IMG/VR virus record: IMGVR_UViG_3300028840_001136
Location: 1 to 26,315 of that record
Direction: 5' to 3' (one strand)
Source: a virus
DNA: 26,315 nucleotides
A model generated the notes under the pieces. It saw only the letters and a program-made list of their open reading frames with translations. It was not told where the DNA came from and made no database searches. Position 1 is the stretch's first letter; each line of letters begins with the position of its first letter. Below, piece after piece: positions 1 through 24,577 of the stretch. The position numbers were made by a program, and so were the translations under genes.

Positions 1-420
1 GGCCGATACCGAAGCGCTGGGGCTGGCGGAAATCGATGCCGATGGACTGGCCGACGGCGACCCGGATATGCTCGCGCTGGGAGACGCACTCGGGCTCGCG
101 GACATCGATGCGCTCGGCGACGTACTGACGCTGGCGCTGGGAGACGCCGAGACGCTGGCACTGGGAGATACCGACGGACTGGCGCTGGGCGACGCGCTGA
201 CGGACGGGCTGGCCGATACCGAAGCGCTGGGGCTGGCGGAAATCGATGCCGATGGACTGGCCGACGGCGACCCGGATATGCTCGCGCTGGGAGACGCACT
301 CGGGCTCGCGGACATCGATGCGCTCGGCGACGTACTGACGCTGGCCGATGGCGATGCACTGACGCTGGCGCTGGGCGAGGCCGACGGGCTGGCCGATGGC
401 GAAGCACTCGGCGAAGATTC
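1..420 (-). repeat. 210-bp tandem repeat coding for PSAS low-complexity protein
   Basis: Bases 1-135 are identical to 211-345, giving a period of 210 bp (exactly 70 codons). The rest of each unit is diverged but has the same Ser/Ala/Pro composition. The repeat continues past the left edge. Being a multiple of three, copy-number change would keep the frame of the protein on the minus strand. Confidence 0.9.
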
Positions 421-1047
421 GGCGCCGGCGATCAGCTCAATGTGTAAAATAAGCCGTGGTCCACCACTGCTGCAGGTCGCCTCTTTAGTTCCGGTGGCAC
501 CTGTTGAGGTATAGGTGGCCCACCAGGCCGCCATATCAAGGTTGGTGCGCGAATTGTCATCAAGAATCAGCGTATACGTTGGCGTGCCGCCGGGATCGTC
601 GGTAATGCCATCTGTTCTGATTGAACCACAGAATATTACCGCTGCATTGCCGGAATCCTGAATAACAATCGATGGTGCGGTTATATCCTCGTTCCAGTCG
701 TTATCGTATACCGAATCAGCATTGCCAAAGCAACTTGATGTGTCAACACCTGTAAATGCGGCAATCGAGCCGTTGATTACCTCATTTCCGCTGAAACTCC
801 ACGTGTAGTTTGACGGTTCCGAGCCACCGGCTTGCTTTGTGTAAAACCAGACATAGGTTGTCCCGATGTCCTGCTCTGCAATCAGTGACCACCCCGAGGG
901 CGCACTGCTCATATTATCGGTGCCGGCACCATTCATGATGCAAGCAATCAGCGCATCGCCGTCAGCCACACCAGAGGGCTTGTCAATCGTAATTGAACTG
1001 CCCCAACTGTTATAAGTAACTTCTGGAGTGAGATCGGAAATAGTCAT
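1..1047 (-). CDS. Tail-associated receptor/fibre-type protein with Ser-Ala-Pro repeat tail (partial, runs off left edge)
   Basis: The frame is open from an ATG at 1047 to the left edge (349 codons seen), so the C-terminus is missing. Residues 1 to about 205 form a Gly/Ser/Thr/aromatic-rich beta domain. It carries motifs ([37 protein letters not shown]) that I recognise from a domain common in phage tail and surface proteins. From about residue 210 it becomes PSAS-type repeats containing a 70-residue tandem unit. It starts 17 nt after the preceding 105-aa gene, with only a weak ribosome binding site. Its place after the J-like and spike genes suggests an adhesion or host-range role. That role is inferred; the reading frame is directly visible. 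Confidence 0.8.
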
Positions 1048-1064
1048 CGGTTACCGTTTTTTGA

Positions 1065-1382
1065 CTATACGGGCTTGACGTTGTGCAGGGCTTGAGAGAC
1101 CGATTCCCAGGAATTGCCGGGCGTGACTGCAGTTCCTTCCCAGAGATCCATAAACTCGTTAAAAAAATCTCTCAGACTTTTTGTCGCAAGTCTTTCAGGT
1201 GAGTCCGTCGCGGTCGTTCCGGGCACCTGCAGCCGGTCCATTTCGGCGACATCAAATTTGTTATACACTGTCTGTGCGGCCTCGATGCGGCATTTCATGC
1301 GGTATAGGTCGTCGCCGAATGCCTGGTTAAACGAGTATAATTCTTCCTTGCTCTCCAGCCGTTGAATTTCTGATATCGCCAT
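1065..1382 (-). CDS. Hypothetical 105-aa protein between tail receptor genes
   Basis: I do not recognise this family. The start is placed at the ATG of MAISEIQRLE because AAGGAG lies 9 nt upstream; a TTG eight codons earlier would swallow that site. The protein is mostly alpha-helical in appearance and charged (ESKEELYSFNQAFGDDLYRMK), with no Cys and no membrane segment. It sits between a secreted-type small protein and the left-edge receptor-type gene in the same direction. It may be a small chaperone or cap for a tail appendage, but nothing in the sequence proves this. Confidence 0.7.
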   Translation of the reverse strand: MAISEIQRLESKEELYSFNQAFGDDLYRMKCRIEAAQTVYNKFDVAEMDRLQVPGTTATDSPERLATKSLRDFFNEFMDLWEGTAVTPGNSWESVSQALHNVKPV

Positions 1383-1469
1383 CAGTTCAGTCTCCTTATT
1401 CGACAATCCAAAAAGTCTTGGTTTGCGTCATTACTTTTATATGAATATCTTTTTTAAACCACCACCATT

Positions 1470-1883
1470 TTATGGTATGAGACGAATCGCCTGCTTGCCA
1501 GGACGAGATTTGTTGAAAACGAAAGGGTCGGAGGGTTCCCCCTCGCCCCAAACGTTGTAATATCTCGCCCGCACGGTGTGCTGGCCGTCGGATACGCCGG
1601 ACAGGTCCCGCAAAATAAAATGTTGCTTATTGCTTTCATCGGTCCACACGCAACCGACCTGTTTTTGGGTGCATCCGGGCACGTCGAACGTATTTTCCCA
1701 GTTGCCGTCCATTTCAACCTGCGCCTGGGTTACCGGATCTTCGATCGGCGGATGCGGATCGCACGCCAGAAAGGGCGAAGCATAGCAATCCACGACGGCC
1801 AAAAATGTAATTAAAAAAACGGCCACTAAAATATTGAACACTGCAAATAATTCCTTTATCCAACGATTTTCTAATTTCTTCAT
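1470..1883 (-). CDS. Small exported protein with N-terminal signal sequence
   Basis: The start is the ATG at 1883, preceded by AAAGGTGATCAG; the longer frame upstream lacks a better site. Residues 1-12 are basic and residues 13-35 form one hydrophobic helix (FAVFNILVAVFLITFLAVV) ending in CYA-SPF, a plausible signal peptidase cleavage region. The mature part of about 100 residues is rich in Trp, Tyr, Gly and Pro and has four Cys. Its end (GQHTVRARYYNVWGEGEPSD) resembles a fibronectin-type or Ig-like beta-sandwich strand pattern. It begins 4 nt after the stop of the 52-aa ORF, so the two are probably translated together. An exported product in a tail region fits a prophage-expressed surface or lysis-related protein. 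The function is unknown. Confidence 0.75.
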   Translation of the reverse strand: MKKLENRWIKELFAVFNILVAVFLITFLAVVDCYASPFLACDPHPPIEDPVTQAQVEMDGNWENTFDVPGCTQKQVGCVWTDESNKQHFILRDLSGVSDGQHTVRARYYNVWGEGEPSDPFVFNKSRPGKQAIRLIP

Positions 1884-1887
1884 CTGA

Positions 1888-2046
1888 TCACCTTTTTTTT
1901 GATAATTGATTATATAAATCCGCCAATTCGTTGACGTGGGCATCAACTTCCCTAAGGAGCGCTTGTATCTGCGTCAACAGCATCATAACGACTATTTCAA
2001 GCTCCAGCTGCCCGTGCAGCTCCAAATTTATTAATTGATATTTCAT
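1888..2046 (-). CDS. 52-aa coiled-coil-like small protein
   Basis: This short ORF begins MKYQLINLELHGQ and continues as one amphipathic helix with Leu/Ile at heptad-like spacing (LEIVVMMLLTQIQALLREVD, then VNELADLYNQL), ending in a basic KKR. Its stop TGA lies 4 nt before the ATG of the signal-peptide protein. The stop region supplies the purine-rich ribosome binding site for that next gene, a sign of coupling. The upstream site (TTTGGATAA) is weak. A small coiled-coil protein beside an exported protein could be part of a lysis pair or an assembly cap. This is inference. Confidence 0.6.
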   Translation of the reverse strand: MKYQLINLELHGQLELEIVVMMLLTQIQALLREVDAHVNELADLYNQLSKKR

Positions 2047-2057
2047 TTATCCAAATT

Positions 2058-2222
2058 TTATTTGCACGCAGACCGTATTTTTTTTTTCATTTGTCTATGC
2101 TCCATTAAGAAATTTACGATGCCGTAGCTTCCCAGATATTCTGCCGGACCGTGTCGCTGACGTGGGCGCATTCGCCAGTTCATTACAATGCTTTTTTCTG
2201 CTATATAGCTTTGACATCCCAT
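2058..2222 (-). CDS. Hypothetical basic 54-aa protein overlapping the spike gene end
   Basis: The start is placed at the ATG at 2222 because AAGGAA lies 6 nt upstream; this start is 21 bp inside the end of the beta-helix spike gene. The product (MGCQSYIAEKSIVMNWRMRP...) is strongly basic at both ends and has no recognisable domain. The overlap and good ribosome binding site support translation. Short length and lack of family leave it uncertain. Confidence 0.5.
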   Translation of the reverse strand: MGCQSYIAEKSIVMNWRMRPRQRHGPAEYLGSYGIVNFLMEHRQMKKKIRSACK

Positions 2223-4375
2223 ATATATTTCCTTATGGAATCGCCAGCGTCGGCGCATTCGCCAGTTATTTTCATCAATAGATCGCCGGACGCATCTTCG
2301 GCCCAGCTTTCAAACCCCTGCAATAAAGTAGTTCCGTCATAACCGCGCCACATCACCCGCTGGCTCGTTTGACCGTTAAAGTGAGAAAAGATCACCTCTA
2401 AAGACCAATCATTTGTATTGTTTGCCGCGGCATGAAAGGTAAAAAAGCTAGATCCCAAATAAAACTTTAGCGTCTTGTTTCCATTTGATCCTGTTTTGGT
2501 TCCCGCAGCGACGACCTTCACACCTCCGACATTGCCAATTATTCCGCCCGGAATAGTGAAAGACTCTAATGTATCTTCGCCGGTTCCCGATGTCACGCGG
2601 TAGGTTCCATCGCGGTCGTAAGTCATGAAGCGAGTCATTGCGATGGATGTACCTGATTGCGCGTCGTATATTCCGTCGCCGACAATCTGCACACTTGAAC
2701 CCGAGGTACCGTGTACAAAATAGTGGTGTGTCGAGTCGCCGCCGACATGATTGTTTATCAGCGAGATCGAACTGTCTGAATATATTCTTGCCAAAGACGA
2801 TTGATATTCGTTCGTCGTTCCGAGACAACCGATAATCGTTCCACGGTTTCCCAGATATATCCCAGCCTGTTCCGAATCGTGGCTCGATGCGGACTGCCAG
2901 TTGTTTTCTGCATGTACGCCACTCATGAGGCAGCCGGTGCCATTTACAACACTTATTCCATACTGCTGCGCTAAAATATATGTGCCGCCGTAAATTTTAA
3001 TGTCGCCCACAGGTGATTCGGCATAAAGCCCAATCAACCCGTATCGCGTAATACAATCCCTGACGTCAATGCTGGATATTGTACCCGAAGCTTTTTGAAA
3101 TAAAATCGGGTATCCGGTTGTATTCCCTGATGAACCAAATAAATGACACCTGCTTAATGCGGTTTCAAAAACATTGCCGGAAATATGAATGCCATTGCCG
3201 TCAAATCCCTCACTACTCAGATCTTCCAGTGACATTGCGTATATGTATTCTTTATTGGCGGGATCTCCACCGTCGATTTTAATAATACCACCTTCACTAC
3301 CGCTTCCGACTACCCGCATCCCCCGGACTGACAAGTAGCGAATTAATTCGTTAGTTGTTGAAATCGTCAACATAATCCCTGACGACAACCCACTCGTGAG
3401 CGTGGCGCCATATCCGTTCATATCCAGATTTCTGGTAACGGCACCCGTGGCCGGATCGCCGTCCCCGGTAAAGGTGACCGTCAAGGCGGTGTTAATTAAA
3501 TAATTCGCGCCCGGCGCGAGCTTGAACTGGGCGCCACCCTCGCCGGTGTCACCCAGGGTTTTCCACAGATCCAGCGCGCACTGCATCGCGGTGGCATCGT
3601 CGGTCGTGCCGTCACCCATGCACCCGAACCAGCCCGGATGAACAGTTCCGCCGGTTGTTAGAACCAAGGGATCGGTTGAGTTGTTCGTGATGTTGATTAT
3701 TTGCTGCTTCGGTGAGGCGACAATGCTTTCGGAGTTATAGACCGTAAAAGATTTCCCCGCGGCCGGCTGAATGACCGCGCCCGGTTGAAAGCTAAATATT
3801 AAGTGATCGATGTTGGCCGTGCCGTCAACATCGTCGTCAATTACATATGTATGATTTCCGGGGAATTCGATTATTGCCGGACTGGCGCCGATCTGATCGA
3901 TCACCCAGGCCAGCGATCCCTCGTCCGTATCGTCGGAATGATCGGTAATGCCGCTATCCGGCGACACGTACCAGCGACGGTAGATGCTGCCGCCGTAGGC
4001 GCTGATGTCTCCCAGATAATATAAAACAGCGTTGAAGTCGTCGGCCGTGTTGCCGCCCGAACACTTGACGACAAACTCATCGGTGGCCTTTTCGACCCAG
4101 ATATCACCGATGGCGGCCGTGCGCGCGATCGCCTCAATCTTGACGGCATATTCGTTGACGGCATCCACCTCTTTGGGCAGGGCGATCGTCGTGCCGGTGG
4201 TGCCGTTAAACGTATCCGTATATATATATAGATCCGGCAGGTCGTCGATTACGCTATTGACCGATCCATAGGCCGAATCGATCAGATCGAAATTGTTGTT
4301 GATGGGCGTGTGAAAATTAAAATCACCTTGGCCCGGCTTGGCCAGGTTCAGGTTCGTGGTATACGTGTTGGCCAT
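2201..4375 (-). CDS. Tail spike/fibre with right-handed beta-helix (pectate-lyase-like) domain
   Basis: The 724-aa protein starts at an ATG with AGGAG 6-7 nt upstream. Residues 1-45 (NLNLAKPGQGDFNFHTPINNNFDLID) are the typical short N-terminal motif of phage fibres that attach to the tail. Around residues 245-275 comes HPGWFGCMGDGTTDDATAMQ, the usual opening of phage pectate-lyase-type beta-helices. It is followed by about 300 residues of short Gly/Asn/Ile-rich coils (SMEDLSSEGFDGNGIHISG-like turns). The last 150 residues are a beta-rich trimerisation or receptor domain. It likely binds or cleaves a surface polysaccharide. No catalytic residues can be assigned safely from sequence alone. Confidence 0.85.
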   Translation of the reverse strand: MANTYTTNLNLAKPGQGDFNFHTPINNNFDLIDSAYGSVNSVIDDLPDLYIYTDTFNGTTGTTIALPKEVDAVNEYAVKIEAIARTAAIGDIWVEKATDEFVVKCSGGNTADDFNAVLYYLGDISAYGGSIYRRWYVSPDSGITDHSDDTDEGSLAWVIDQIGASPAIIEFPGNHTYVIDDDVDGTANIDHLIFSFQPGAVIQPAAGKSFTVYNSESIVASPKQQIINITNNSTDPLVLTTGGTVHPGWFGCMGDGTTDDATAMQCALDLWKTLGDTGEGGAQFKLAPGANYLINTALTVTFTGDGDPATGAVTRNLDMNGYGATLTSGLSSGIMLTISTTNELIRYLSVRGMRVVGSGSEGGIIKIDGGDPANKEYIYAMSLEDLSSEGFDGNGIHISGNVFETALSRCHLFGSSGNTTGYPILFQKASGTISSIDVRDCITRYGLIGLYAESPVGDIKIYGGTYILAQQYGISVVNGTGCLMSGVHAENNWQSASSHDSEQAGIYLGNRGTIIGCLGTTNEYQSSLARIYSDSSISLINNHVGGDSTHHYFVHGTSGSSVQIVGDGIYDAQSGTSIAMTRFMTYDRDGTYRVTSGTGEDTLESFTIPGGIIGNVGGVKVVAAGTKTGSNGNKTLKFYLGSSFFTFHAAANNTNDWSLEVIFSHFNGQTSQRVMWRGYDGTTLLQGFESWAEDASGDLLMKITGECADAGDSIRKYIWDVKAI

Positions 4376-9311: not shown

Positions 9312-10988
9312 TCAACTCCTCAAGGCATCGCGGAAGCGACGGTTTGTCATCTTGCGCTTGATGATAATGTCGGCCACCATCTTCTCGGGATCCTGGCGGA
9401 TCGTCTGGGTTTCGGCCTCCAGGGACGTGCCGGACTGGTTGTTGATGTTGATCTCGATATTGGCCCCGCCGCCGCCCAGCCTGGAATCCGGGATAACGGT
9501 TTCGTTGGCGTGAAACTCATAGCTGCGGCCGGACTGCAGGCCGATACCGGCCACCGGCTCACCGATGTGGCCGCCGGCGTCGAATCCATAGCCGCCGCCG
9601 GCCCCGCCCCGGATAGTGCTCGGAAGGCCGGACGTAAAGACGCTCGTTAAGCCGCTGAGCAGCCCGCTCATGACCATCCGCGCCTGGATCCGAACCAAAT
9701 CGCCGATCAGCGAGTCGGCAAACCCTTTGAAATCAACTTTGCCGGATGTCACAAACTCGGACAGGGCGTCCGAGGCGTGTGAAAATGAGGTGGATATGCG
9801 GCTGTCGATCGACTCGTAGGCCCCGCCCGTGTATTCGGCGTACTCGCGCACGTGGCCCGTCATGTCCTCGTAGGCCTTTTCGGAATCGCGCACGAGGGTG
9901 TCGTACTGGGCAAAACGCGACAGCTCCACCCCCATGGTTCGGTCATAAACGTCGCCCGGCGCCATGGTGTCGTATTTCATGGAAGTTTTGTCTTGCCAGG
10001 GCGGTATGGCTGGCGATCGCGCCGGCGGAATTACCGTCGGCCCCGCCGGCGGCGGTATCTTGCGGCGCACGATACTGGGGCCTTCAAAAGTAGTTTGCGC
10101 ACCACCCAGGGCTTCGTCCACCATGCGCTGGCGCTCGAAAAAACCGGCCTTGTAAAATTTCTCCCAGTCGATTTTGCCCTCGCGCGCCAGTTTGGCGCCC
10201 TGGGCGAAGGTGCCTGAGATGCCGCGCAATCCGGCATACTTGGCCACCTTGCTCATGGCGTTGGCCAGGGTTTCCACGGCCGCGGTGATCGACTCCACGT
10301 TTTCGAGCACCACCTTCGAGAAATTGACCTGGATCACCTTACCCAAATCGTCCATGGCATCCTTGGCATTTTCGGAGCCCCGGATCAGGTCGTCGTCCAG
10401 GATGACCCCCAGCCCGCGTGCTTTTTCCCCGAAGGCTTCCAGCCCGGCGGATCCGTCGCGCAGCATGTTGACCAGGGCCGCGCCCTCACTGTCGAACGCT
10501 TTAAACGCGATCCGCAGGCGCTCGGCCGGATCGGTGGTGCGCTGGATCACGTCGGCCAGGTCGCGGAACACCGCCTCGGTGGCGCGCGTGTTGCCGGCCG
10601 CGTCGCGCACGGCGATGTTGTACTGCTCCAGCACCCCGCGCAACTCGCCCTTGCCCTGGGCCGCCTCGGCCGTGCGCCGGGTGAAACGCTGCAGGGCCAT
10701 GTCCAGGGTCTTGGTTTCCACTCCGGAGCGCTCGGCCGCATATCTGTACTCCTGCAGGGCCGTGGTGGTGACGCCCAGCTTGTCGGCCGTCTTGCCGATG
10801 GCGTCGGCCGTCTCGATGCTTTTGGTGATCAGCAGCCCGAATCCGCCGGCGCCGGTCAGCGCCCCCAGGGCGCCGCGGAATGAAAAAACGGATTTGGTGA
10901 TGGCCGTGATGCGCCCCTGGAACTTGGTCAGGGCGGCCCCGGTGATGTCCTTGGCCGCTAAAATTATCTGCAACTTAGGATCGGGCAT
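9312..10988 (-). CDS. Tail tape measure protein
   Basis: The 558-aa protein starts at ATG 10988, with AAAGG 9 nt upstream. The N-terminal half is helical (IILAAKDITGAALTKFQGRI, TADKLGVTTTALQEYRYAAE) with the TADKLG-type motif usual in tape measure proteins. A hydrophobic stretch lies near residues 40-60 (ALGALTGAGGFGLLITKS). The C-terminal part (SDALSEFVTSGKVDFKGFADSLIGDLVRIQARMVMSGL in register) matches the lambda H-type tail-length protein. It fixes tail length and leaves with the DNA at injection. At about 0.15 nm per residue it would specify a rather short tail of roughly 80 nm. It directly precedes M-like and follows the chaperone genes. Confidence 0.9.
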   Translation of the reverse strand: MPDPKLQIILAAKDITGAALTKFQGRITAITKSVFSFRGALGALTGAGGFGLLITKSIETADAIGKTADKLGVTTTALQEYRYAAERSGVETKTLDMALQRFTRRTAEAAQGKGELRGVLEQYNIAVRDAAGNTRATEAVFRDLADVIQRTTDPAERLRIAFKAFDSEGAALVNMLRDGSAGLEAFGEKARGLGVILDDDLIRGSENAKDAMDDLGKVIQVNFSKVVLENVESITAAVETLANAMSKVAKYAGLRGISGTFAQGAKLAREGKIDWEKFYKAGFFERQRMVDEALGGAQTTFEGPSIVRRKIPPPAGPTVIPPARSPAIPPWQDKTSMKYDTMAPGDVYDRTMGVELSRFAQYDTLVRDSEKAYEDMTGHVREYAEYTGGAYESIDSRISTSFSHASDALSEFVTSGKVDFKGFADSLIGDLVRIQARMVMSGLLSGLTSVFTSGLPSTIRGGAGGGYGFDAGGHIGEPVAGIGLQSGRSYEFHANETVIPDSRLGGGGANIEININNQSGTSLEAETQTIRQDPEKMVADIIIKRKMTNRRFRDALRS

Positions 10989-16868: not shown

Positions 16869-17780
16869 AGTTAAACTCCCTTGTTGTAGTAAATAGTTAA
16901 GTTTCCCGCCGGCGACCAGGTTGGCCGCCCGCGTGTAGGCCATGGCAAAATTACCGACATGGTCCACCAGGCCGGCGTCCGCCGCCTGCTGGCCGATAAA
17001 AATTCGCCCATCGGCCATATCTGAAAGGACCGCCGCCACTTCGACGTCGCGGTTGCGCGCGACGGTTTCCACAAAAATTGTATATAGATAATCCAACTCG
17101 GCCTGGAAGGTCTCCCGCGCCAGGTCGCTCAGCGGCTCGTCCGGGTTGCCCAGGGCCTTGTACTTGCCGGCCGTCAGATAAGTCACGTCGATGCCGGTTT
17201 TCTGATTGTAGACGCTCCAATCCTCGTGCACCATCAGCACCCCGATCGAGCCCACCATGGCCGTGGCACCGGCCACGATCTCGCTGGCGGCCGATCCCAG
17301 CTCGTAGGCCGCGCTGGCCATCATGCCGTCGGCATAGGCCACGATCGGTTTTTGGCCGCGGGCCTCGAAAATCAGGTCCACGGTTTCTTCCAGGCCGTTG
17401 ACCACCCCGCCCGGTGAATCGACGCGCAGCGCCAGTGCCGCCACCTCGTCATCGGCCAGGGCGGCCTTGACGGCGGCCTGGATGTAGGCGTAGGAAGTCC
17501 CTCCAAAAAACCATAGCGCCAGGCTCTCGCGCTTCATCAGTGGGCCGGCTATGGTGATCACGGCCGTATCTCCGTACAGGCTGTATAGATCCTTTTCGGT
17601 GCTTTTTTCCGGCAGCTCCGCGGCAAACTTCGTCAGGCCGCCGGAAATGCTCTCAAGGCACAGCCGGCGATACATTTCCTCAAATGCCGGCGGGTGGATC
17701 GGCCACATCTGCCCCTTACAGAATTCGCTCAGGTTTAAATCGGGTGTTATAAAATCATTTTGGCTTTTCTTCGGGCTCAT
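16470..17780 (-). CDS. Capsid maturation protease, S49 (SppA/lambda C-like), with C-terminal scaffold region
   Basis: The 436-aa protein starts at ATG 17780, with GGAGG 9 nt upstream, and overlaps the portal gene by 26 bp. The S49 fold is clear: RVDSPGGVV (residues 119-127), DGMMASAAYELGSAA with nucleophile Ser156, GSIGVLM (177-183) and GKYKALGNP with the likely base Lys206 or Lys208. Residues 305-436 are helical and acidic, then Pro/Glu-rich, like a scaffold domain. In lambda the C protease shares its end with the Nu3 scaffold, and the same layout is seen here. The enzyme acts inside the procapsid. Confidence 0.9.
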   Translation of the reverse strand: MSPKKSQNDFITPDLNLSEFCKGQMWPIHPPAFEEMYRRLCLESISGGLTKFAAELPEKSTEKDLYSLYGDTAVITIAGPLMKRESLALWFFGGTSYAYIQAAVKAALADDEVAALALRVDSPGGVVNGLEETVDLIFEARGQKPIVAYADGMMASAAYELGSAASEIVAGATAMVGSIGVLMVHEDWSVYNQKTGIDVTYLTAGKYKALGNPDEPLSDLARETFQAELDYLYTIFVETVARNRDVEVAAVLSDMADGRIFIGQQAADAGLVDHVGNFAMAYTRAANLVAGGKLNYLLQQGSLTMEKSKETQITLDLLKSEAPELVRQIEDEAIAVGHETGHAAGIIAERERVLEILGAEADPVQTLVAISDGTPADAAFKAFYEAEKAKRATGLAEMAAAAPEPAGTEEPQNNNPATETPENKRQSWRPASGPAL

Positions 17781-19287
17781 CGTCTGAATCCTCCGCGCCC
17801 TTGGCGCTGTGGTAAATGGTCACCCGGCGACTATCGATGGCGGTGCGCTCGCGCGCCAGCTGGTCCAGGTTTTCCTCCCAGTCGTCTCCCTGGGCCGCGG
17901 CCTCCTTGGCCAAGGTGCTCAATCCGTAATCGATCGCCTTGCGGCTCGCCTCGACCTCCTTGACCGGATCGACCCAGCCCCAGCCGCCGCCGATCCAGGC
18001 CGCACGGGTATATTCATGATAATATTTGTAAAAATCCGGCGCGTCGAACTCGCCCCGCAGATAGGCCTCCTCGATCACCAGCTGCCAGATCGGATGGCAA
18101 AACTTGGACGCCAGCCAGCCGCGCCAGGTTTTAAACACCCGCCGGCCTTCGAGCAGGGACGCCCGCGCGCTGGAGTAATTGGTTTTGGAAAAGTCTTTTA
18201 CCAACAGCTCGTAAGGCAGTCCCAGGGCCACCCCGATCAGCCGCAGGATCGACTCCACAAAGGGCGCGAACGAATCGCCCGGCCGCTTGGGATCGACCAC
18301 GTTGATCGACTCGCCCATCCCCAGCCGTGCGATCAGCCCCGGTGTCAGCTCCTGAACTGTTGAATCGCTCGAACTTTCCCTGCCGGTCAGCCCAAACTGC
18401 TGGTCCTTGCTGATAAACACGCTCAAGCAGGCCGCCACCCGCGCCGCCACGATCTCGGCCTCCAGGTAGTTGGCCAGATCCTGAAAATAAGTCAGCACCG
18501 GCGCAAAAAAAGGAATGCCGCGCATTTGTCCCGGCCGCCGCGTCGGAAATACGTGCAATATCTTGGGCCGGCCGGCGCGGTCCCGCGCCGGTACGGTCAG
18601 GTATTCGGTAAGGGAATTGGCCTTGCGGATGTAGTAGGTCTGAGGCTCGCCGCGCCGGCCGGGTTTGATGCCGTGCTGCACCGATTTGTCGATCCGGGCC
18701 CGGTTGCCCGGCGTCGCCAGTCGCTCGGACTCCAGCAGCTCGATGCAGCGCCCGTAGGGCCGCCATGATTCTTGAGCCCAGGTCGGCAGGGCGATAATCT
18801 CGCCGTCCTCGACGGTTTTTAACAGCGCCACAAACTGCAGCTCGTCAAAGCTCAACCGGTTGTCGGCCGAGGCCAGCGGCGCCCACTTGGCAAACGCCGC
18901 CTCGGCCTGCAGCTGCAAATCGCCGCCGCGGCTTTCGGATATGCCTAAAATTTTATAGGGAATTCGACTCTGGGGCTTGAGCCCGCTGCCCACGATGTTG
19001 TGGGCCATGGTGTCGCTGGCGCCCGCCGCGACCGGGTGGTTGCGGTTGGCGTCGCGGCTGCGGATGCGCAGTAATGATAATTCATAGCCTGACGGCGTCT
19101 GGCCGCTGCCGCGCGCCGCGCTGATCCAGTCGGTCCTCAGGGTGGTCTGGTCAGCCCCTTTGTACTGGGTCGCATAGGACAGCATCTCGCGCTTGACGGT
19201 TCGCTGCAAGGCCCAGGACGGCGACAGATAGCCGATGATCCTATCCAGACGGCTGGCCGGTGTGGCGGCCGCTGGTTGGCCCATCAT
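17755..19287 (-). CDS. Portal protein (lambda B family)
   Basis: The 510-aa protein starts at ATG 19287 behind AAGGAG, overlapping the gpW-like stop by 4 bp. The N-terminal third (LRTDWISAARGSGQTPSGYE, LRIRSRDANRNHPVAAGAS, DTMAHNIVGSGLKPQSRI) and the region near residues 310-360 (PGLIARLGMGESINVVDPKR, LIGVALGLPYELLVKDFSKT) are hallmarks of lambda-type portals. So is the end (AWIGGGWGWVDPVKEVEASR). It forms the dodecameric DNA channel at the head vertex and docks the terminase. The length is close to the family norm of about 500-530. Confidence 0.93.
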   Translation of the reverse strand: MMGQPAAATPASRLDRIIGYLSPSWALQRTVKREMLSYATQYKGADQTTLRTDWISAARGSGQTPSGYELSLLRIRSRDANRNHPVAAGASDTMAHNIVGSGLKPQSRIPYKILGISESRGGDLQLQAEAAFAKWAPLASADNRLSFDELQFVALLKTVEDGEIIALPTWAQESWRPYGRCIELLESERLATPGNRARIDKSVQHGIKPGRRGEPQTYYIRKANSLTEYLTVPARDRAGRPKILHVFPTRRPGQMRGIPFFAPVLTYFQDLANYLEAEIVAARVAACLSVFISKDQQFGLTGRESSSDSTVQELTPGLIARLGMGESINVVDPKRPGDSFAPFVESILRLIGVALGLPYELLVKDFSKTNYSSARASLLEGRRVFKTWRGWLASKFCHPIWQLVIEEAYLRGEFDAPDFYKYYHEYTRAAWIGGGWGWVDPVKEVEASRKAIDYGLSTLAKEAAAQGDDWEENLDQLARERTAIDSRRVTIYHSAKGAEDSDDEPEEKPK

Positions 19288-19502
19288 GACGGCTCCTTGA
19301 ACGATGCGGTCTGCAAAAAGCCGGCGGTGCCCGCGTTGATGTCGGCCGTGATCAGATTGCGTAGTCTCTGCAGTTTGTCCAGATCGGCGGCCTGATAGCG
19401 GATTGTCTTGCCGGCGATCTCGACCTCGACCACGCGTTCGCCCGAGGCGATGGCCACCATGGCCGCTTCGACGGCTGTGAGATTTGCTGCGGTAAACGCC
19501 AT
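19284..19502 (-). CDS. Head-tail joining protein, gpW-like
   Basis: The 72-aa protein starts at ATG 19502, with AGAGGG 8 nt upstream; earlier in-frame codons overlap the preceding gene. It has the gpW layout of two helices around a beta hairpin (LTAVEAAMVAIASGERVVEV, AGKTIRYQAADLDKLQRLRN). The length is close to lambda W (about 68 aa). It lies immediately before the portal, as W does before B. Confidence 0.85.
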   Translation of the reverse strand: MAFTAANLTAVEAAMVAIASGERVVEVEIAGKTIRYQAADLDKLQRLRNLITADINAGTAGFLQTASFKEPS

Positions 19503-19516
19503 AAATTCAACCCTCT

Positions 19517-19765
19517 TTAAACGGCCAGTGGCTTGCGCCAGTATTGGCAATTTGATTTTGGTTTTTTCGGATCCAGCTCGATGCGCAGTTTATAACAGCG
19601 CCGCCCGTCGGCCGACTTCCAGTCCGGCGTCCGGCAGGTGGTGCAGTTTTTTCTTTTCGCCCGCGCGGCCGGCTTTTTTCCCGCGCGCCGGTTTAGATCC
19701 GCCGCCGCCCGCAACTGCTCGGCCGCGATGTCGATGTCGGCCAGGGCCGCGTCCGGAATTGTCAT
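19517..19765 (-). CDS. Small Cys-containing protein upstream of gpW
   Basis: The start is taken as ATG 19765 (MTIPDAALADIDIAAEQLRA), with GAG about 10 nt upstream. An ATG at 19801 is directly preceded by a T-run and has no ribosome binding site. The product is an Ala-rich helix, then a basic linker (RRAGKKPAARAKRK), then CTTC...C...C in the last 40 residues, which may bind zinc. I do not recognise a family. It is the first gene after the accessory island and reads into the head operon. Confidence 0.6.
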   Translation of the reverse strand: MTIPDAALADIDIAAEQLRAAADLNRRAGKKPAARAKRKNCTTCRTPDWKSADGRRCYKLRIELDPKKPKSNCQYWRKPLAV

Positions 19766-19805
19766 GGAATCATCTCGATTGCCCTTCGACTGCTCAGCCA
19801 TAAAA

Positions 19806-19890
19806 AAAACCCATGATACGGTAGTTTTTAAAAAATAAACCCCAAAATATGGTAGCCTTTTGATTGTACTGCCACCATATCATGGGGTTT
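19806..19890 (-). terminator. Two mutually exclusive hairpins sharing one 5' arm
   Basis: On the minus strand one arm (19890-19872) can pair with 19855-19837, followed by ATTTTTT. It can instead pair with 19824-19806, followed by a further T-run just before 19801. The three 19-bp copies differ at only a few positions. The first hairpin also ends in TTTTT on the plus strand. It is either a terminator between the cassette island and the head operon or an attenuator-like switch. Confidence 0.6.
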
Positions 19891-19955
19891 TTGGACGAAT
19901 CTGGAATTGTACCGGAAAAAGACGGATTAGACCCGGAAAATGGTCGTTAAATTAC

Positions 19956-19987
19956 TTGACATAAATTTTGCGGGCAAAATTTATATT
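19956..19987 (+). promoter_or_regulatory. Promoter-like hexamers overlapping an 11-bp perfect palindrome
   Basis: TTGACA at 19956-19961 and TTTATA at 19980-19985 are spaced by 18 bp. Between and over them lies ATAAATTTTGC-GG-GCAAAATTTAT (19961-19984), an 11-bp inverted repeat that could be an operator. A transcript would run on the plus strand, opposite to the cassettes. The same palindrome could instead be a weak hairpin. Confidence 0.4.
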
Positions 19988-20001
19988 GATTTAAGAAAGC
20001 T

Positions 20002-20116
20002 GGCTAACGTTGGGCATGACTTGCCGGGACGGTTTGGCCGGATGCGACTTTTAACATGCACAAACCTACGAAGCCGCTACGATTCCCGGTCAAGTCCATG
20101 CCGCTTGTTATATGCC
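20002..20116 (-). repeat. attC recombination site (integron cassette type), site 1, 115 bp
   Basis: On the minus strand: R'' GGCATATAAC, 5-nt spacer AAGCG, L'' GCAT-G-GACTTG-A-CCGGGA, a 54-nt variable centre, L' TCCCGGCAAGTCATGC, 5-nt spacer CCAAC, and R' GTTAGCC. L'' and L' form 16 base pairs with two extrahelical bases in L'' only. This is exactly the attC plan. R'' is the perfect complement of the R' of the preceding site (GTTATATGC), so both belong to the same small cassette. Confidence 0.85.
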
Positions 20117-20188
20117 AGGGCAGCTTTTGACTATGTTGCCTAGGACATGCCTTTTGCTTTACTAATTTCGCCCCGGCAAATCTATAAA
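20117..20188 (-). other. ORF-less gene cassette body between attC sites 1 and 2
   Basis: The unit from the crossover G/TT at 20197 to that at 20008 is 189 bp. It consists of 72 bp of unique AT-rich DNA plus its own attC. No start codon with a ribosome binding site or reasonable ORF is seen on either strand. Its start GTTATATGCT and end GGCATATAAC are complementary. ORF-less cassettes are known in integrons; this one may carry a promoter or RNA. Confidence 0.65.
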
Positions 20189-20251
20189 GCATATAACGAT
20201 TAGCTGAGCCGCCCTGCTTTTCGGGTCGGCTCAAGCGGCTGGTTGTGTGCC
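20189..20251 (-). repeat. attC recombination site, site 2, after the HNH gene
   Basis: On the minus strand: R'' GGCACACAAC, spacer CAGCC, L'' GCT-T-GAGCCG-A-CCC, 8-nt loop, L' GGGCGGCTCAGC, spacer TAATC, R' GTTATATGC. The stem is 12 bp with two extrahelical bases (T and A) six bases apart, as in site 1. Both spacers are exactly 5 nt. It begins 21 nt after the HNH stop. R'' is the complement of the R' GTTGTGTG at 21624-21617, which marks the start of the same cassette. Confidence 0.88.
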
Positions 20252-20272
20252 GAAATTATATTAACATTCGTT

Positions 20273-20479
20273 TTATTCAAACCCATTTGACTTACGACGA
20301 TTACAGTCAGCATGAGTAATTCTCAAATTACTAACGTGGTTGGTCCCGCCTTTCGATTTTGGTATAAAATGATCGATTTGTAGCTCACCGCTCAATTTAC
20401 ACCAGCATATAGGGCATCTACCGGATTGCATCTTGGCCAGCTTCAGGCGTTTGCCTGGACTCATTTTCAAACGGCGCAT
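20273..20479 (-). CDS. Small HNH endonuclease
   Basis: The start is taken at ATG 20479, where GGAG lies 9 nt upstream; the ATG at 20488 directly abuts that GGAG. The 68-aa protein shows CPICWCKL, then LQIDHFIPKSKGG with the His-His/Asp core, then NLRITHADCNRRKS. These are the two Cys pairs and the HNH box of a zinc-stabilised beta-beta-alpha-metal nuclease. HNH proteins often lie next to terminase genes and aid packaging in HK97-type phages. Here the gene is the last one of an attC-bounded cassette, so it may be a passenger. It overlaps the end of the 195-aa gene. Confidence 0.85.
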   Translation of the reverse strand: MRRLKMSPGKRLKLAKMQSGRCPICWCKLSGELQIDHFIPKSKGGTNHVSNLRITHADCNRRKSNGFE

Positions 20480-21005
20480 TTTCGACATCTCCGAAAGTTA
20501 AATCTTTTGGGTTGTAGCCATGGATTCCGGCCATATCAATAAGCCTATCAGCACGCTGCAGCTGTTCTTTAATCATTTCTGCCTTATTCTCTTTTTGCTC
20601 CCAAGCCTTCGCTAATTCGTCAGCTTCTTTTCGAGTCTGCTTTAAAAAGCCATCTAAAATTTCACGACCGTCAACCAGCGAAACTTCACGGTAATGTTTC
20701 TTTTTGTTGCCTATAAACATAAACTTGGGCAGCTTAAATGCCGGCTCATTGAATAAGCTCATTTGACGGGTTTCTATCCAGCGATTAGGATCCCTGGTAG
20801 AATCTCGATCCATTGCATCCAGCTTTTGGTTAACTGTATTCAATGTCAAAGTTACAAACACACTGTCCCTGTCCATTCCAGGCCAATTATCCTCAATTAC
20901 CTTGTCGATATGGATATTTCTATCATCGACATCGGAGAATAGAATCCTTTGCTTTTGCACATCGTTAGCGAATTGTTCGGCAGTTTTATCTATCTGGTAG
21001 TTCAT
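20418..21005 (-). CDS. Unknown 195-aa protein in the cassette
   Basis: The start overlaps the previous stop (ATGA) behind GGAGGTCAAGAA. The product is acidic and helical. It begins MNYQIDKTAEQFANDVQKQR, has a central segment (FVTLTLNTVNQKLDAMDRDS, FKLPKFMFIGNKKKHYREVS), and a C-terminal coiled-coil stretch (ETRKEADELAKAWEQKENKA). I do not recognise a family. It is translated with the 200-aa gene upstream and the HNH gene downstream, all inside one attC-bounded unit of low G+C. A partner of the upstream DNA-binding-like protein is possible. Confidence 0.75.
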   Translation of the reverse strand: MNYQIDKTAEQFANDVQKQRILFSDVDDRNIHIDKVIEDNWPGMDRDSVFVTLTLNTVNQKLDAMDRDSTRDPNRWIETRQMSLFNEPAFKLPKFMFIGNKKKHYREVSLVDGREILDGFLKQTRKEADELAKAWEQKENKAEMIKEQLQRADRLIDMAGIHGYNPKDLTFGDVENAPFENESRQTPEAGQDAIR

Positions 21006-21601
21006 TTCTTGACCTCCGCAATTTTTTTATTGATAAATAATGAAACTTTTTCCCAGCGGTTGCATAGTTCAATTAATTTATTTTCCGGTATAAATGTCGC
21101 GGTTTTTTCCTCCACTGACAAATCAATACGCTTTTCGATAATTCTTATGGCGCCTAGAATAACCCCGTACATCATGGATGCCTGCAAATCAGGATTGTTT
21201 TTAATATGCTGCTTATTTTTCTTTTCCAGTTCTAAATATTCTTCTTCTTTTTTGTGAAGTTCTCCGATTTTTTTATTTAATTCGATTATTAAATGCTGTT
21301 TACTTAGTGTGCCAGCACCTTCACGCTTACCGCCCCTATATGTTCCATCCTTCGATTTTTGTTTGATACATTCAGAAGTATCTGTTTTAACTTTATTTTT
21401 TTTACTTGGGACATTTGTCCCAAGACTATTTCTTGCTCTTAAATCTTTTTTTCTTATTGTCTCTGGCTCAACATCCCGGCCCAATGCCTCAGAAAAAATC
21501 CCGGCCAACCACTTGGCCGCCTCATTGCGAGACATCCCATTTGCGGTGCATTCATCAATTTCTTTTTTCACTTCAAACTTACATATTTCAGAAATTGCCA
21601 T
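21002..21601 (-). CDS. Unknown 199-aa protein with HTH-like N-terminus and coiled coil
   Basis: The start is taken at the second ATG (21601), with GGAG 6 nt upstream. Residues 1-55 (NGMSRNEAAKWLAGIFSEAL, VEPETIRKKDLRARN) look like a DNA-binding helical segment. Then comes YRGGKREGAG, a short basic Gly-rich motif often found in phage DNA-binding proteins. It is followed by a Lys/Glu coiled coil (LNKKIGELHKKEEEYLELEK). It starts 13-16 nt after the R' of attC site 3, the usual distance for a cassette's first gene. The function is unknown; replication or regulation is possible. Confidence 0.75.
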   Translation of the reverse strand: MAISEICKFEVKKEIDECTANGMSRNEAAKWLAGIFSEALGRDVEPETIRKKDLRARNSLGTNVPSKKNKVKTDTSECIKQKSKDGTYRGGKREGAGTLSKQHLIIELNKKIGELHKKEEEYLELEKKNKQHIKNNPDLQASMMYGVILGAIRIIEKRIDLSVEEKTATFIPENKLIELCNRWEKVSLFINKKIAEVKK

Positions 21602-21616
21602 CATTTACTCCATTTA

Positions 21617-21671
21617 CACACAACGTGCAGATCACTTGCGCTTTTTAGTCAAGTGAAACTGCTGGTTGGCG
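21617..21671 (-). repeat. attC recombination site, site 3
   Basis: On the minus strand: R'' CGCCAAC, spacer CAGCA, L'' GTT-T-CACTTG, 11-nt loop region, L' CAAGTG-ATC, spacer TGCAC, R' GTTGTGTG. An extra T lies at the same place in L'' as in sites 2 and 4. One mismatch is present in the outer L pair. The site begins 5 nt after the stop of the 68-aa Cys-rich gene. Its R' matches the R'' at the end of the next cassette. Confidence 0.75.
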
Positions 21672-21675
21672 AAAG

Positions 21676-21882
21676 TTATCGCCATATTTCACAGTCTCCA
21701 AAGCACCCATCATAACCGCAGTTATCGCAAGGGCCATAATCATCTGGATCAGCTTCCCACGGCGCACTTCCATATGCAAAGAATGTATCGCATAATGTGC
21801 AACGATACCCATAGTATTCTTCTTCCCATTTATGCTTGTTCCATTCACAAGTAAAAAAACCAGTGTCTTTATTTCGTTTCAT
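21676..21882 (-). CDS. Cys-rich 68-aa protein in a cassette
   Basis: The start is taken at ATG 21882 (MKRNKDTGFF) with GGAAAG upstream; the longer frame runs through an attC-like hairpin. It has cysteines as single or CxxC pairs (FTCEWNKHKW, RCTLCDTFFAY, YGPCDNCGYDGCFGDC) and many Tyr, Asp and Trp, so it probably binds one or two zinc ions. I know no family. It is followed within 5 nt by attC site 3. The previous site (21880-21928) has lost its R', so its start codon sits at the place of the old crossover. Confidence 0.7.
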   Translation of the reverse strand: MKRNKDTGFFTCEWNKHKWEEEYYGYRCTLCDTFFAYGSAPWEADPDDYGPCDNCGYDGCFGDCEIWR

Positions 21883-21928
21883 TTTCTTTCCGCTCACTTG
21901 CGAAGACAAGTGAAGCATTTGGTTGGCG
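21880..21928 (-). repeat. Degenerate attC site 4 without R'
   Basis: On the minus strand: R'' CGCCAAC, spacer CAAAT, L'' GCT-T-CACTTG, loop TCTTCG, L' CAAGTGAGC, then GGAAA and GAAAATG where R' should be. The L stem is a perfect 9 bp with one extrahelical T, as in site 2. The missing GTT suggests an inactivated site. The R'' 7-mer is identical to that of site 3. Confidence 0.65.
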
Positions 21929-21963
21929 TCATTGCCGTATATGCTTGATATTACGAGATAAAA

Positions 21964-22018
21964 AGCCAACCAGTAGTTAAGTAGTTTCTGTATAACTTCA
22001 AATTTGAGATGTTATGCC
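21964..22018 (-). repeat. Degenerate attC-like site 5 at the outer edge of the island
   Basis: GGCATAAC (22018-22011, minus) and GTTGGCT (21970-21964) fit R'' and R'. The inner stem is short: TT-G-AAGT pairs with ACTTAA, with one extra G. Spacers are irregular (9 and 6 nt). R' GTTGGC is the complement of the GCCAAC in R'' of sites 3 and 4. It starts 15 nt after the HTH gene and marks the upstream end of the island. Confidence 0.45.
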
Positions 22019-22032
22019 GCAATTACCTGCCT

Positions 22033-22248
22033 TTATTCCGCATCCCGGGGGATCTCGTTTTCGGCGTGCCGGGTAATCTGTTTGAAAAACTCGTCGATGT
22101 TTTCGCGGTGCGCATACCAGCGGTTATTGATCACCCGCGCCGGCAGCCCCATCTCGACAAATTGGTAAAACATCGGCTTCCCGATTTTCATGTAGTTTAA
22201 AATATCGCTTAGTCCGATCAGGGTTTTGCTGCCGTTTTTGTCGCCCAT
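22033..22248 (-). CDS. Small HTH DNA-binding protein (excisionase/MerR-like)
   Basis: The start is ATG 22248, where TAATG overlaps the stop of the 32-aa ORF; a GTG two codons earlier also exists. The 71-aa product has TLIGLSDILNYMKIGKPMFY, then QFVEMGLPARVINNRWYAHR, then ENIDEFFKQI, the standard layout of winged-helix excisionase-type proteins. It may control the accessory region or assist packaging, like a second Nu1-type HTH. It stands just upstream of the cassette island. Confidence 0.8.
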   Translation of the reverse strand: MGDKNGSKTLIGLSDILNYMKIGKPMFYQFVEMGLPARVINNRWYAHRENIDEFFKQITRHAENEIPRDAE

Positions 22249-22346
22249 TAGCACACCCGAAACAGCAATTCACAGGTTTCGCGGTTGTAGTTAAAATCAT
22301 TAAAGTCGGCCATCAGACAAATTAGCCAGATCCGATAGGTTTTCAC
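22248..22346 (-). CDS. 32-aa small ORF with GTG start and perfect Shine-Dalgarno
   Basis: AAAGGAGG lies 6 nt before a GTG at 22346, the best ribosome binding site in this part. The product is MKTYRIWLICLMADFNDFNY followed by a short Cys-containing end, with three Cys in all. Its stop overlaps the ATG of the HTH gene (TAATG). It could be a true small protein or a leader peptide that couples translation to the HTH gene. Confidence 0.55.
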   Translation of the reverse strand: MKTYRIWLICLMADFNDFNYNRETCELLFRVC

Positions 22347-22385: not shown

Positions 22386-22628
22386 TTACAATGCACCCAG
22401 ATCCACGATCTTGAGCCCGTCATCGATGCTTTTCAAGCCCTTGTCGCTCGCGTTGTATAACCCGGACGCATCCTGGCCGAACGGCCGCGCCGGCATGCCA
22501 TAAATCCGGTCGGCGTATTCCATCCGCCGGCGGCAGGTGGCGCATGGATACCGCGCAAGTTTTTTATTAAGCCGTTTTAGATGAATCGGGCAGTCAATAC
22601 ACGGTGATTTTTCACAATCAATACCCAT
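22386..22628 (-). CDS. Cys-rich 80-aa protein following the large terminase
   Basis: The start overlaps the terminase stop (TAATG). Residues 5-40 hold five Cys in CEKSPCIDCPIH and CATCRRRMEYADRIYG, a likely zinc-binding pair of knuckles, then an acidic tail ending LKSIDDGLKIVDLGAL. I do not recognise the family. Tight coupling to the terminase suggests a packaging accessory role, which is inference. Confidence 0.7.
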   Translation of the reverse strand: MGIDCEKSPCIDCPIHLKRLNKKLARYPCATCRRRMEYADRIYGMPARPFGQDASGLYNASDKGLKSIDDGLKIVDLGAL

Positions 22629-24577
22629 TATCGTCCTCCGATCCAGCCCGATCGCCCGCCGCCGCCAATCCAGCTATCACCTTGCGTTTCTGGTTTTTCC
22701 GGTGGCGGCGGCGTTTCGGCCTTTGTTTCCAAATAATGTGCCAGGCTGGTCAAATTCGGCTGCCAGGAAATGTCCGCACAACCGGCGGCATAGACCTCGC
22801 AGTCCAGCAAATGATTGTCCCGCCTGACCTGTTTCCAATACATCTTGCCGCGCCGGTCACGACGCAGCTCCTCAGCTAGAAATTGCCGTGCGTAATCCAT
22901 ACCGGTCTCGGCGTGCAAGTAAAACCGCTGGCTTTCCGCCGGCATGGGCTCGTCGTTTTCGTCGGTCGGGTTTTCTTTGCGGCTCAACCGCCACCACAAT
23001 AACCCTTTAATCTGGGCCGTATCCAGCATGCGAATCGTCACCAATCCGCGCCAGCCACGGCGCCTGCCGCTGGCTATCGGCTTGGCCTCGACCTGCTTTT
23101 CGGGTCCCACCCGCTGGAACTGACGCCGACTGGCCCCCTTGATCCCGTATAATATGCGGTCTCCGTACTTGTGGCGCAGCTGGGTTATAAAGTTGTAGAC
23201 CTCCTCGGTGCGGGTGTCGGTTTCGCTTTCGCCATCACCGCCGCCGGTGTCCATGGCCGCCCGCCAGATCGGCAGGGTTTCATTTTTGCCGTCGACGGGA
23301 TAAGACGTGTTGTAAACCAGGTTTTCGACGTCCTCGAAGGTTGCCAAATAGCCATACTGTACCAGGTGACTGGTCAAATCCCCGCCCCAGGCCCGCACCA
23401 CAAACCAGAATCCGCGTTTTTGCGTATCGATGCCGGCCGTCAGGGCCACGGCCCAGTCCGGCGCCACTCCGGGCGGCAGGTCGTTTTTATGCTTTAACAG
23501 CTCACTTTCCACCTGGCGCTCCACCCGCTCGGTCCAGGGCTGGCATTTGTGCTGGGTGACATAAGCCTGGTATTTGTTGGGGTCCTCCTGGGCCCTAAAA
23601 AATGCCGCCAGCGGTGTCGATAGGCTCACAAAGGGCGAGTACCAGGAGGCCAGCTCCCGGAAAGCCACCGCCACGGGACGCTCCACCGGGTGCTCGGCTT
23701 TCCAGCGCCCGGCCGCCACCGCCTGGTTGCGCATGTAATCGTCCCAGTCCATTTTGCAGGCCGTGCAGGTATAGCGGCCCATTTTTTTACGGCGGATGTC
23801 GCGCGGATCCCGGCAGCCGCCAGCGTGCAGGTTGGCATCTTCCATGATCTGTAACGCATTGCACACCGGGCAGCGTGCATGGTAGCGCCTCACCTCGTCT
23901 GGCTCGGTTTTTAGTAACAGGTCAAAGGCGTCGCCCTCTAAATTAGGCGTGGAAAAATATAGCGACTTGCTGGTATTCTCATAGGTGTTCTGGCGCTGGT
24001 CGCCCAGAGAAAACGGGTCGGCCTCTTTGCCGGACCATTCCGGGTATTTGCCGGGCTCGTCGTAAAACATATATTGAATTGATTCGCTGGCCAGGGCCGC
24101 CGCAGATGAGGCCCAGGCCATCATCAAGTCCATACCATTGACAAAGCGCACCGCCAGGGTGGTGACATCGTCGGCCCGCGTGCCCAGCAGCGCCGAGGTG
24201 CGCGGTGACTTGCGAAACATGGGGATAAGCTGCCGGCGGGCGATGCGCTTGGCTACCTTTTCGTCCGGCATGATATACATGGCTGGGCCGGGCGCCACAT
24301 CGATGCAATAGTTTAAACAGTTGGTGGCAAAAGTCGTTTTTCCCGTCTGCGGCGCCCACTCCACGAATATTTTACGCACCCAGGGCAGGTTAAAAGTGTT
24401 CATGGGCTCGATGGCATACGGTGTCAAATTCGGGTCATAGTGTGATCCGTCACGAAATTTGCGATACTTGGTGGCATGTTCCGCCACCGTGATCCGGTCC
24501 CGCGCCCGAAATACCAGCCTCTCGGCATCGGTAAACCGAAACGATTCAGTCTCTATTTTCTCTGCCAGTTGCTGCAT
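22628..24577 (-). CDS. Terminase large subunit (lambda GpA family)
   Basis: The 649-aa protein has an ATPase with Walker A at residues 75-82 (APQTGKTT), Walker B at 168-174 (QYMFYDE) and a coupling motif STPN at 209-212. A zinc ribbon follows, with C236-PVC239 and C271-TAC274. The C-terminal RNase H-like nuclease has Asp384 (GIDTQKRG) and Asp443 (AAMDTGGGDG), and HLLDCEVYAA near the end. It cuts concatemeric DNA and drives it into the procapsid through the portal. Length is equal to lambda A (641). In lambda the next gene is W; here about 3 kb of other DNA lies between. Confidence 0.94.
   Translation of the reverse strand: MQQLAEKIETESFRFTDAERLVFRARDRITVAEHATKYRKFRDGSHYDPNLTPYAIEPMNTFNLPWVRKIFVEWAPQTGKTTFATNCLNYCIDVAPGPAMYIMPDEKVAKRIARRQLIPMFRKSPRTSALLGTRADDVTTLAVRFVNGMDLMMAWASSAAALASESIQYMFYDEPGKYPEWSGKEADPFSLGDQRQNTYENTSKSLYFSTPNLEGDAFDLLLKTEPDEVRRYHARCPVCNALQIMEDANLHAGGCRDPRDIRRKKMGRYTCTACKMDWDDYMRNQAVAAGRWKAEHPVERPVAVAFRELASWYSPFVSLSTPLAAFFRAQEDPNKYQAYVTQHKCQPWTERVERQVESELLKHKNDLPPGVAPDWAVALTAGIDTQKRGFWFVVRAWGGDLTSHLVQYGYLATFEDVENLVYNTSYPVDGKNETLPIWRAAMDTGGGDGESETDTRTEEVYNFITQLRHKYGDRILYGIKGASRRQFQRVGPEKQVEAKPIASGRRRGWRGLVTIRMLDTAQIKGLLWWRLSRKENPTDENDEPMPAESQRFYLHAETGMDYARQFLAEELRRDRRGKMYWKQVRRDNHLLDCEVYAAGCADISWQPNLTSLAHYLETKAETPPPPEKPETQGDSWIGGGGRSGWIGGR

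Follow-up and report, generated by a model that had tools for sequence, protein, structure and literature searches.

Do the hairpins that lie between the packaging and head genes of an uncultivated lambda-type phage represent genuine attC recombination sites, and could they mark gene cassettes drawn from the integrons of its hosts? The window, by which we mean the whole stretch of DNA analysed here, is IMG/VR virus record IMGVR_UViG_3300028840_001136, a linear fragment of 26,315 bp. All genes of the region are encoded on the minus strand, in the order small terminase, unknown gene, large terminase (gpA type), small ORF, small HTH gene, a variable interval that we term the slot, small gene, gpW-like gene, portal and head protease (Table 1). 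A sequence-only reading had proposed an integron-type cassette array with five attC sites in this module. Our analysis supports the array with three of those sites, and we conclude with high confidence that the slot, within the packaging/head module of this lambda-type tailed phage, holds a cluster of attC sites lacking an integrase (CALIN). Integron-bearing Desulfobacterota are the likely hosts.

Anatomy and scores of the attC sites

We used a scanner built for attC anatomy: an R'' box (xxxxAAC), a spacer, a stem with two bulges on its left arm only, a second spacer and an R' box (GTTxxxx). Sites 1 and 2 were its top two matches over both strands of the window (scores 16.7 and 15.2), with the third-ranked match at 10.2. 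When the window was shuffled 400 times with dinucleotides preserved (10.5 Mb, searched on both strands), a score of at least 15.2 was reached twice and one of at least 16.6 never, and 4000 shuffles of the slot reached 15.2 once. When checked on 40 bacterial loci beside integron integrases, scanner matches of at least 13 were unidirectional within each locus.

Rfam at gathering thresholds returned no match in the window, and covariance models were therefore built in this analysis from bacterial loci, with no window sequence among the training sites. Model R1 was trained on 10 short attC-like sites and model R2 on 43 attC-like sites adjoining integron integrases in Desulfobacteria-class genomes, one of the 43 being the opposite strand of another training site. 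Structurally poor alternatives were set aside, namely a MAFFT alignment of mixed-length attC sites, a 15-site short set and a long-site set; the 10 short sites were adopted and then iterated. The window was searched with R2 with filters off, and the model E-values are rough because calibration was short.

The sequence-only reading had named an attC covariance search of the minus strand as its check, and R2 returned three convincing sites, every one on that strand and in gene direction: site 1 (58.4 bits, E 1.6e-10), site 2 (35.2 bits, E 1.4e-5) and site 3 (34.5 bits, E 1.9e-5). The next match was the opposite strand of site 1, at just 15.8 bits (E 0.18). R1 scored site 1 at 61.2 bits (E 1e-13) and site 3 at 21 bits (E 0.004), and did not recover site 2, which is of the long type, whereas its training sites were short. 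Site 3 was missed by the structure scanner and was placed in register by the covariance model. Over 340 kb of 31 related loci, the only R2 matches below an E-value of 4 were sites 1 and 2 of a near-identical contig, L027.

Sites 1 and 2 display the full anatomy: an R'' box, a spacer of about 5 nt, a stem, one extrahelical base, a 6-bp stem, an extrahelical A, an inner stem, a bulge-free L' arm, a further spacer of about 5 nt and an R' box. In site 1 this reads as R'' ACACAAC, spacer CAGCC, left arm GCT[T]GAGCCG[A]CCC, a loop of 8 nt, right arm GGG CGGCTC AGC, spacer TAATC and R' GTTATAT, with the extrahelical bases bracketed. The combination of R''/R' boxes (RYYYAAC-like and GTTRRRY-like), spacers of about 5 nt and paired L''/L' arms was identified by the scanner in sites 1 and 2 and by the model in all three, and the extrahelical bases are confined to L'' throughout, the second always being A ([T]..[A], [G]..[A] and [T]..[A] at sites 1, 2 and 3). 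Folding supports the three hairpins (z -2.5 to -2.7 for site 2 and -3.0/-3.5 for site 3), and their folded bottom strands may be substrates for an integron integrase. The full architecture ascribed to two sites thus agrees with their top scanner scores and R2 matches, and the description of the third as keeping most of it holds, with one mismatch in the outer stem.

The remaining two sites of the sequence-only reading were not upheld as attC by model search and folding. The fourth, judged by eye, retains R'' and a hairpin (GCCAAC, CAAAT, then GCT[T]CACTTG..CAAGTGAGC), with an arm resembling that of site 3 and GAAAATG at the R' position; it gave no R2 match at E<=10 and folds weakly (z about -1.6). 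The fifth has only GTTGGC, complementary over 6 bases to the GCCAAC of the fourth, and it folds at chance level (z -0.4/+0.4) with no convincing R2 match.

Table 1. Features of the cassette array and its surroundings in the window.
Feature	Position	Strand	Evidence or remarks
Portal protein, lambda family	17755..19287	-	PF05136 2e-84; TIGR01539 above cut-off
gpW-like head-tail joining protein	19284..19550	-	NF047331 E 4.5e-6, under that model's curated cut-off
Conserved non-coding block, right slot border	19815..19995	-	aligned with L028, L030, L001
attC site 2 (long type, 54-nt loop region)	20002..20113	-	R2, scanner, fold
Cassette C, 189 bp, without convincing ORF	20008..20196	-	9/9 linkage
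attC site 1 (short type, 8-nt terminal loop)	20191..20248	-	R1, R2, scanner
Cassette B, 1427 bp, between the R' cuts of sites 3 and 1	20197..21623	-	ORFs of 200, 195 and 71 aa
71-aa HNH endonuclease, third of cassette B	20273..20488	-	PF01844 E 1.2e-11; phrog_2118 E 4e-14; stop about 24 nt ahead of attC site 1
195-aa ORF, second of cassette B	20418..21005	-	4-nt overlap; orphan
200-aa ORF, first of cassette B	21002..21604	-	begins about 20 nt past cassette boundary; no Pfam/PHROG match
attC site 3 (one outer-stem mismatch)	21618..21671	-	R1, R2, fold
68-aa ORF with paired CxxC motifs	21676..21882	-	stop 4 nt ahead of attC site 3; longer reading 21676-21969
Fourth site, possible decayed attC (R'' and hairpin kept, R' lost)	21880..21928	-	by eye
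Fifth site, unsupported	21964..22018	-	only GTTGGC
Small HTH/excisionase-like gene, left slot border	22033..22254	-	71-75% identical in L028-L030
Terminase large subunit, lambda gpA type	22628..24577	-	PF05876 1e-49, PF20454 7e-39, phrog_15

Box linkage and cassette content

In a linear array the bases past the cut in an R' box already belong to the cassette that follows; once that cassette is circular, they pair with its own R'' box. Consistent with such an arrangement, site 3 has an R' (GTTGTGTG) that pairs without mismatch with the R'' of site 1 (CACACAAC; 8/8), and site 1 in turn has an R' (GTTATATGC) that pairs without mismatch with the R'' of site 2 (GCATATAAC; 9/9), while the R'' and R' boxes within each site pair over 3-4 bases only. 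Complementarity reaching 8 occurred in 3 of the 1053 GTT-AAC combinations in the slot. Bacterial arrays served as a positive control: among 19 pairs of neighbouring detected sites, 11 showed perfect complementarity between R' and the R'' that follows, compared with 3.3% all against all. The linkage therefore supports two complete cassettes, B and C, whose boundaries are placed between the G and TT of the R' boxes, as is usual for integrons. This complementarity between neighbours was additional to the evidence offered in the sequence-only reading, and it fits cassette-by-cassette assembly.

ORF stops precede sites 3 and 1 by 4-24 nt, as in compact cassettes, upholding the claim that the sites follow gene direction with attC at the gene 3' end; together with the next cassette starting at R', this is the layout of a gene cassette array. 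Searches of viral_contigs, phages and class genomes with the cassette ORFs yielded the near-identical twin contig and one weak match, nothing more. The 200-aa ORF had its only relative in viral_contigs on the twin and none in phages, and the 195-aa ORF likewise matched the twin alone in viral_contigs and nothing in phages, with the one weak match among 389 class genomes. No family match was found for the 68-aa ORF, and BLASTN of the slot against phages and plasmids gave no match. PADLOC matches of the HNH endonuclease were set aside as generic.

The three attC sites fall within 1.7 kb with no IntI nearby, and the 26-kb record, itself a fragment, contains no tyrosine recombinase (PF00589). The locus consequently has the form of a CALIN, as the sequence-only reading had suggested, and not that of a complete integron with intI beside the array. 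We know of no general consensus for attI sites outside the core site.

The slot in related phages and the likely hosts

The slot is limited on one side by the small HTH gene and on the other by a conserved hairpin upstream of the small gene and gpW-like gene, and its GC content is 34-47% vs about 60% in the terminase and portal genes. At the left border, visible homology to the cousin phages stops at the stop codon of the HTH gene. At the right border, alignable sequence resumes about 10-25 bp past the R' of site 2, and the hairpin CCCCATGATATGG...CCATATTTTGGGG (window 19800-19895, minus strand) precedes a T-run and the start codon (ATG) of the adjoining gene. This hairpin is kept in four phages with a variable loop and folds at z -3.6 to -6.5; a partial second copy occurs in the window only. 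The placement of the island where lambda A and W would otherwise adjoin is accordingly to be corrected: the slot extends from the HTH gene to the conserved hairpin, and cousins fill it with other genes.

Phages L028/L029 and L030 share the HTH gene (71-75% identity) and portal (77-87%) with the window, yet their slot ORFs are unrelated to those of the window; in L001 the slot measures about 40 bp. An R2 search of these related loci detected attC in none of them. The sequence-only reading had accepted that the same genes and hairpins in all relatives would count against it, and the relatives differ in both. The slots of the cousins (L030:1025-2250 and L028:2846-3876) hold other orphan genes, among which we observed one sigma-70 region 4 type domain and one weak endonuclease likeness. 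L029 also has an insertion of ~91 nt at the end of a slot ORF (L029:4324-4417) relative to the otherwise 99.97% identical L028; it was rejected as a cassette, having no attC anatomy. Elsewhere, two stretches of ~380 bp resembling a tandem duplication (positions 9860-10241 and 10398-10776 on the reverse-complemented window) cross-match between the window phage and its cousins at about 70-76%.

A separate IMG/VR contig, the twin L027, is 99.97% identical to the window over 11.7 kb and spans the right-hand junction, cassette C, most of cassette B and sites 1 and 2, stopping short of site 3. Since it repeats the junction at this identity, an assembly accident is unlikely. No cassette exchange between near-identical phages was seen, the single twin having the same array as far as it reaches.

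By terminase, the nearest prophages are those of a Desulforapulum MAG and of Desulfoluna butyratoxydans (49-53% identity). Terminase identities of 45-53% point to integron-bearing Desulfobacterota as the likely hosts, and these hosts are probably sulfate-reducing bacteria. Of 241 genomes sampled from the class to which the closest prophage host belongs, 117 encoded an integron integrase above the curated cut-off, as did both genomes holding related prophages (G001 and G002). The phage array resembles the chromosomal integrons of the class Desulfobacteria (loci L067-L106) in its attC anatomy, with site 1 scoring 58-61 bits vs 57-70 bits for training sites, and in the box linkage between neighbouring sites. 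Unlike them, it has no adjacent integrase, is flanked on both sides by phage genes and shares no cassette with the loci examined.

Origin of the array and cassette clusters in other phages

Two accounts would deny that phage attC sites are present at all. Ordinary phage features, such as terminators, packaging signals or operon processing sites, could look like attC by chance, and the intergenic position of the hairpins in an AT-rich stretch and the conserved terminator-like hairpin adjoining the slot lend this some plausibility. We nevertheless regard it as very improbable, given that three model matches with E-values of 1e-5 to 1e-10 fall in one 26-kb window, bulges are found on L'' only alongside exact R boxes, the gene strand has no T-run after sites 1 and 2, a terminator has no need of complementarity between neighbouring boxes, and relatives are devoid of these hairpins. 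A chimeric contig, or a bacterial integron wrongly filed under viruses, is less probable still: metagenome assembly and repeat-rich cassette arrays make such errors conceivable, but the array is embedded on one strand between phage terminase and portal genes and its junction recurs in L027, another IMG/VR record.

A far stronger contender, to which we assign a probability somewhat short of even, accepts the sites as attC and holds that they are a dead, now inactive fragment of a host array, which entered through homologous or illegitimate recombination and which IntI has never mobilized in the phage. The absence of an integrase from the record and the decayed look of one or two upstream sites agree with this account, as does the uptake of other genes without attC into the slot of the cousins, from which it follows that another uptake route exists there. 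Against it stand the intact sequence and fold of sites 1 and 2 and the perfect box linkage of cassettes B and C; the right border, within about 10-25 bp of the conserved block, also speaks against it, yet is compatible with entry by either route.

Under the reading of a CALIN acquired from a host, the cassettes would have come from a chromosomal integron of the host, IntI having used their folded bottom strand as substrate. Insertion may have occurred at a secondary, attG-like GTT within the slot, the empty target being hypothetical, or a ready-made array fragment may have recombined into the slot. IntI acts at secondary GNT/GTT sites, with insertion of cassettes outside the integron cited in the same work (PMC10127599), and a passage of PMC11023631 refers to off-target integron recombination at attG sites (Loot et al. 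2024). The first route would resemble the reaction in these sources, so far as they describe it, in that cassettes land outside the integron at a GTT-type target, and would differ from it in that for the present phage the reaction is a proposal. Once in place, the cassettes would be transcribed together with the phage genes of the same direction and, staying excisable, could be excised or exchanged by host IntI, which would make the phage a carrier of host cassettes. The more ambitious idea that the slot beside the packaging genes is an outpost of host integrons, with phages repeatedly loading and swapping host cassettes via host IntI, we consider rather unlikely; if true, viral accessory genes would be exchanged through integron recombination during infection. 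The possible passage of integron cassettes between bacteria by way of phages has been little mapped. In the present case the array occupies a delimited, tolerant slot in the packaging module of a phage, and the likely hosts belong to a class rich in integrons.

Cassette clusters in phages have been reported earlier, but rarely. A survey of 10,705 phage genomes recorded 17 CALINs, 3 complete integrons and 1 In0, and phage attC sites recombined with attI1 in E. coli given IntI1 (Qi et al. 2023, PMC9892861); no later survey of phage CALINs was found among the open-access papers searched. As such CALINs are already published, the present array joins a known kind: those cases too comprise attC runs without an integrase in phage genomes, some with same-direction cassettes, and the CALIN flanks in Shewanella prophage M16-3 include terminase, tail and scaffolding genes (PMC9892861). 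In contrast to them, the window belongs to an uncultivated phage with relatives in Desulfobacterota, a group absent from PMC9892861, its array lies between terminase and portal in a hypervariable slot with an HNH endonuclease among the cargo, and it is known from sequence alone.

We scanned IMG/VR with one degenerate, narrow attC-arm pattern, which amounts to a partial census, and used as control the same pattern with the bulged A changed to T. The pattern retrieved 42 stretches vs 6 for the control; full-length R2 matches at E<0.01 were present in 16 of the 42, many of them arrayed, and in none of the control stretches. The 16 include the twin contig (L136), and L133/L134 and L117/L151 are among those with identical sites, leaving ~15 further IMG/VR contigs with attC sites, several of which encode phage hallmark genes: a portal (L135), terminases (L149, L151), a tail fibre J protein (L118) and a tail protein (L134). 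Pooling the window with other arrays, ten in all, gave 21 links between neighbours; 9 were perfect, two of them the window's own. Because one narrow pattern sufficed to find 16 R2-positive stretches, phage CALINs probably occur more often in uncultivated phages than published numbers indicate, and the rarity of attC in phages asserted in the sequence-only reading was overstated. An attC census across viruses would address the frequency with which integrons supply phages with accessory genes, or phages supply integrons.

Individual contigs from the scan differ in content. In L135 (399-1470 and 4675-7446), three attC sites enclose a gene for a DNA methylase (N6_N4_Mtase); the same-strand portal lies downstream, and its ORF also contains an HNH-like stretch. 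L118 carries six consecutive attC sites (409-3299). The other R2-positive stretches were L122, L127, L139, L113, L133/L134, L148, L149, L151/L117, L152, L129 and L141. In L148 a Xer-like tyrosine recombinase adjoins two attC sites, but its score rules it out as IntI (27.9 bits vs a cut-off of 265). In L122 a DNA methyltransferase gene lies between attC sites, and L129 (639-2354), also a contig with attC sites, encodes a DnaB-type helicase with an intein splicing domain.
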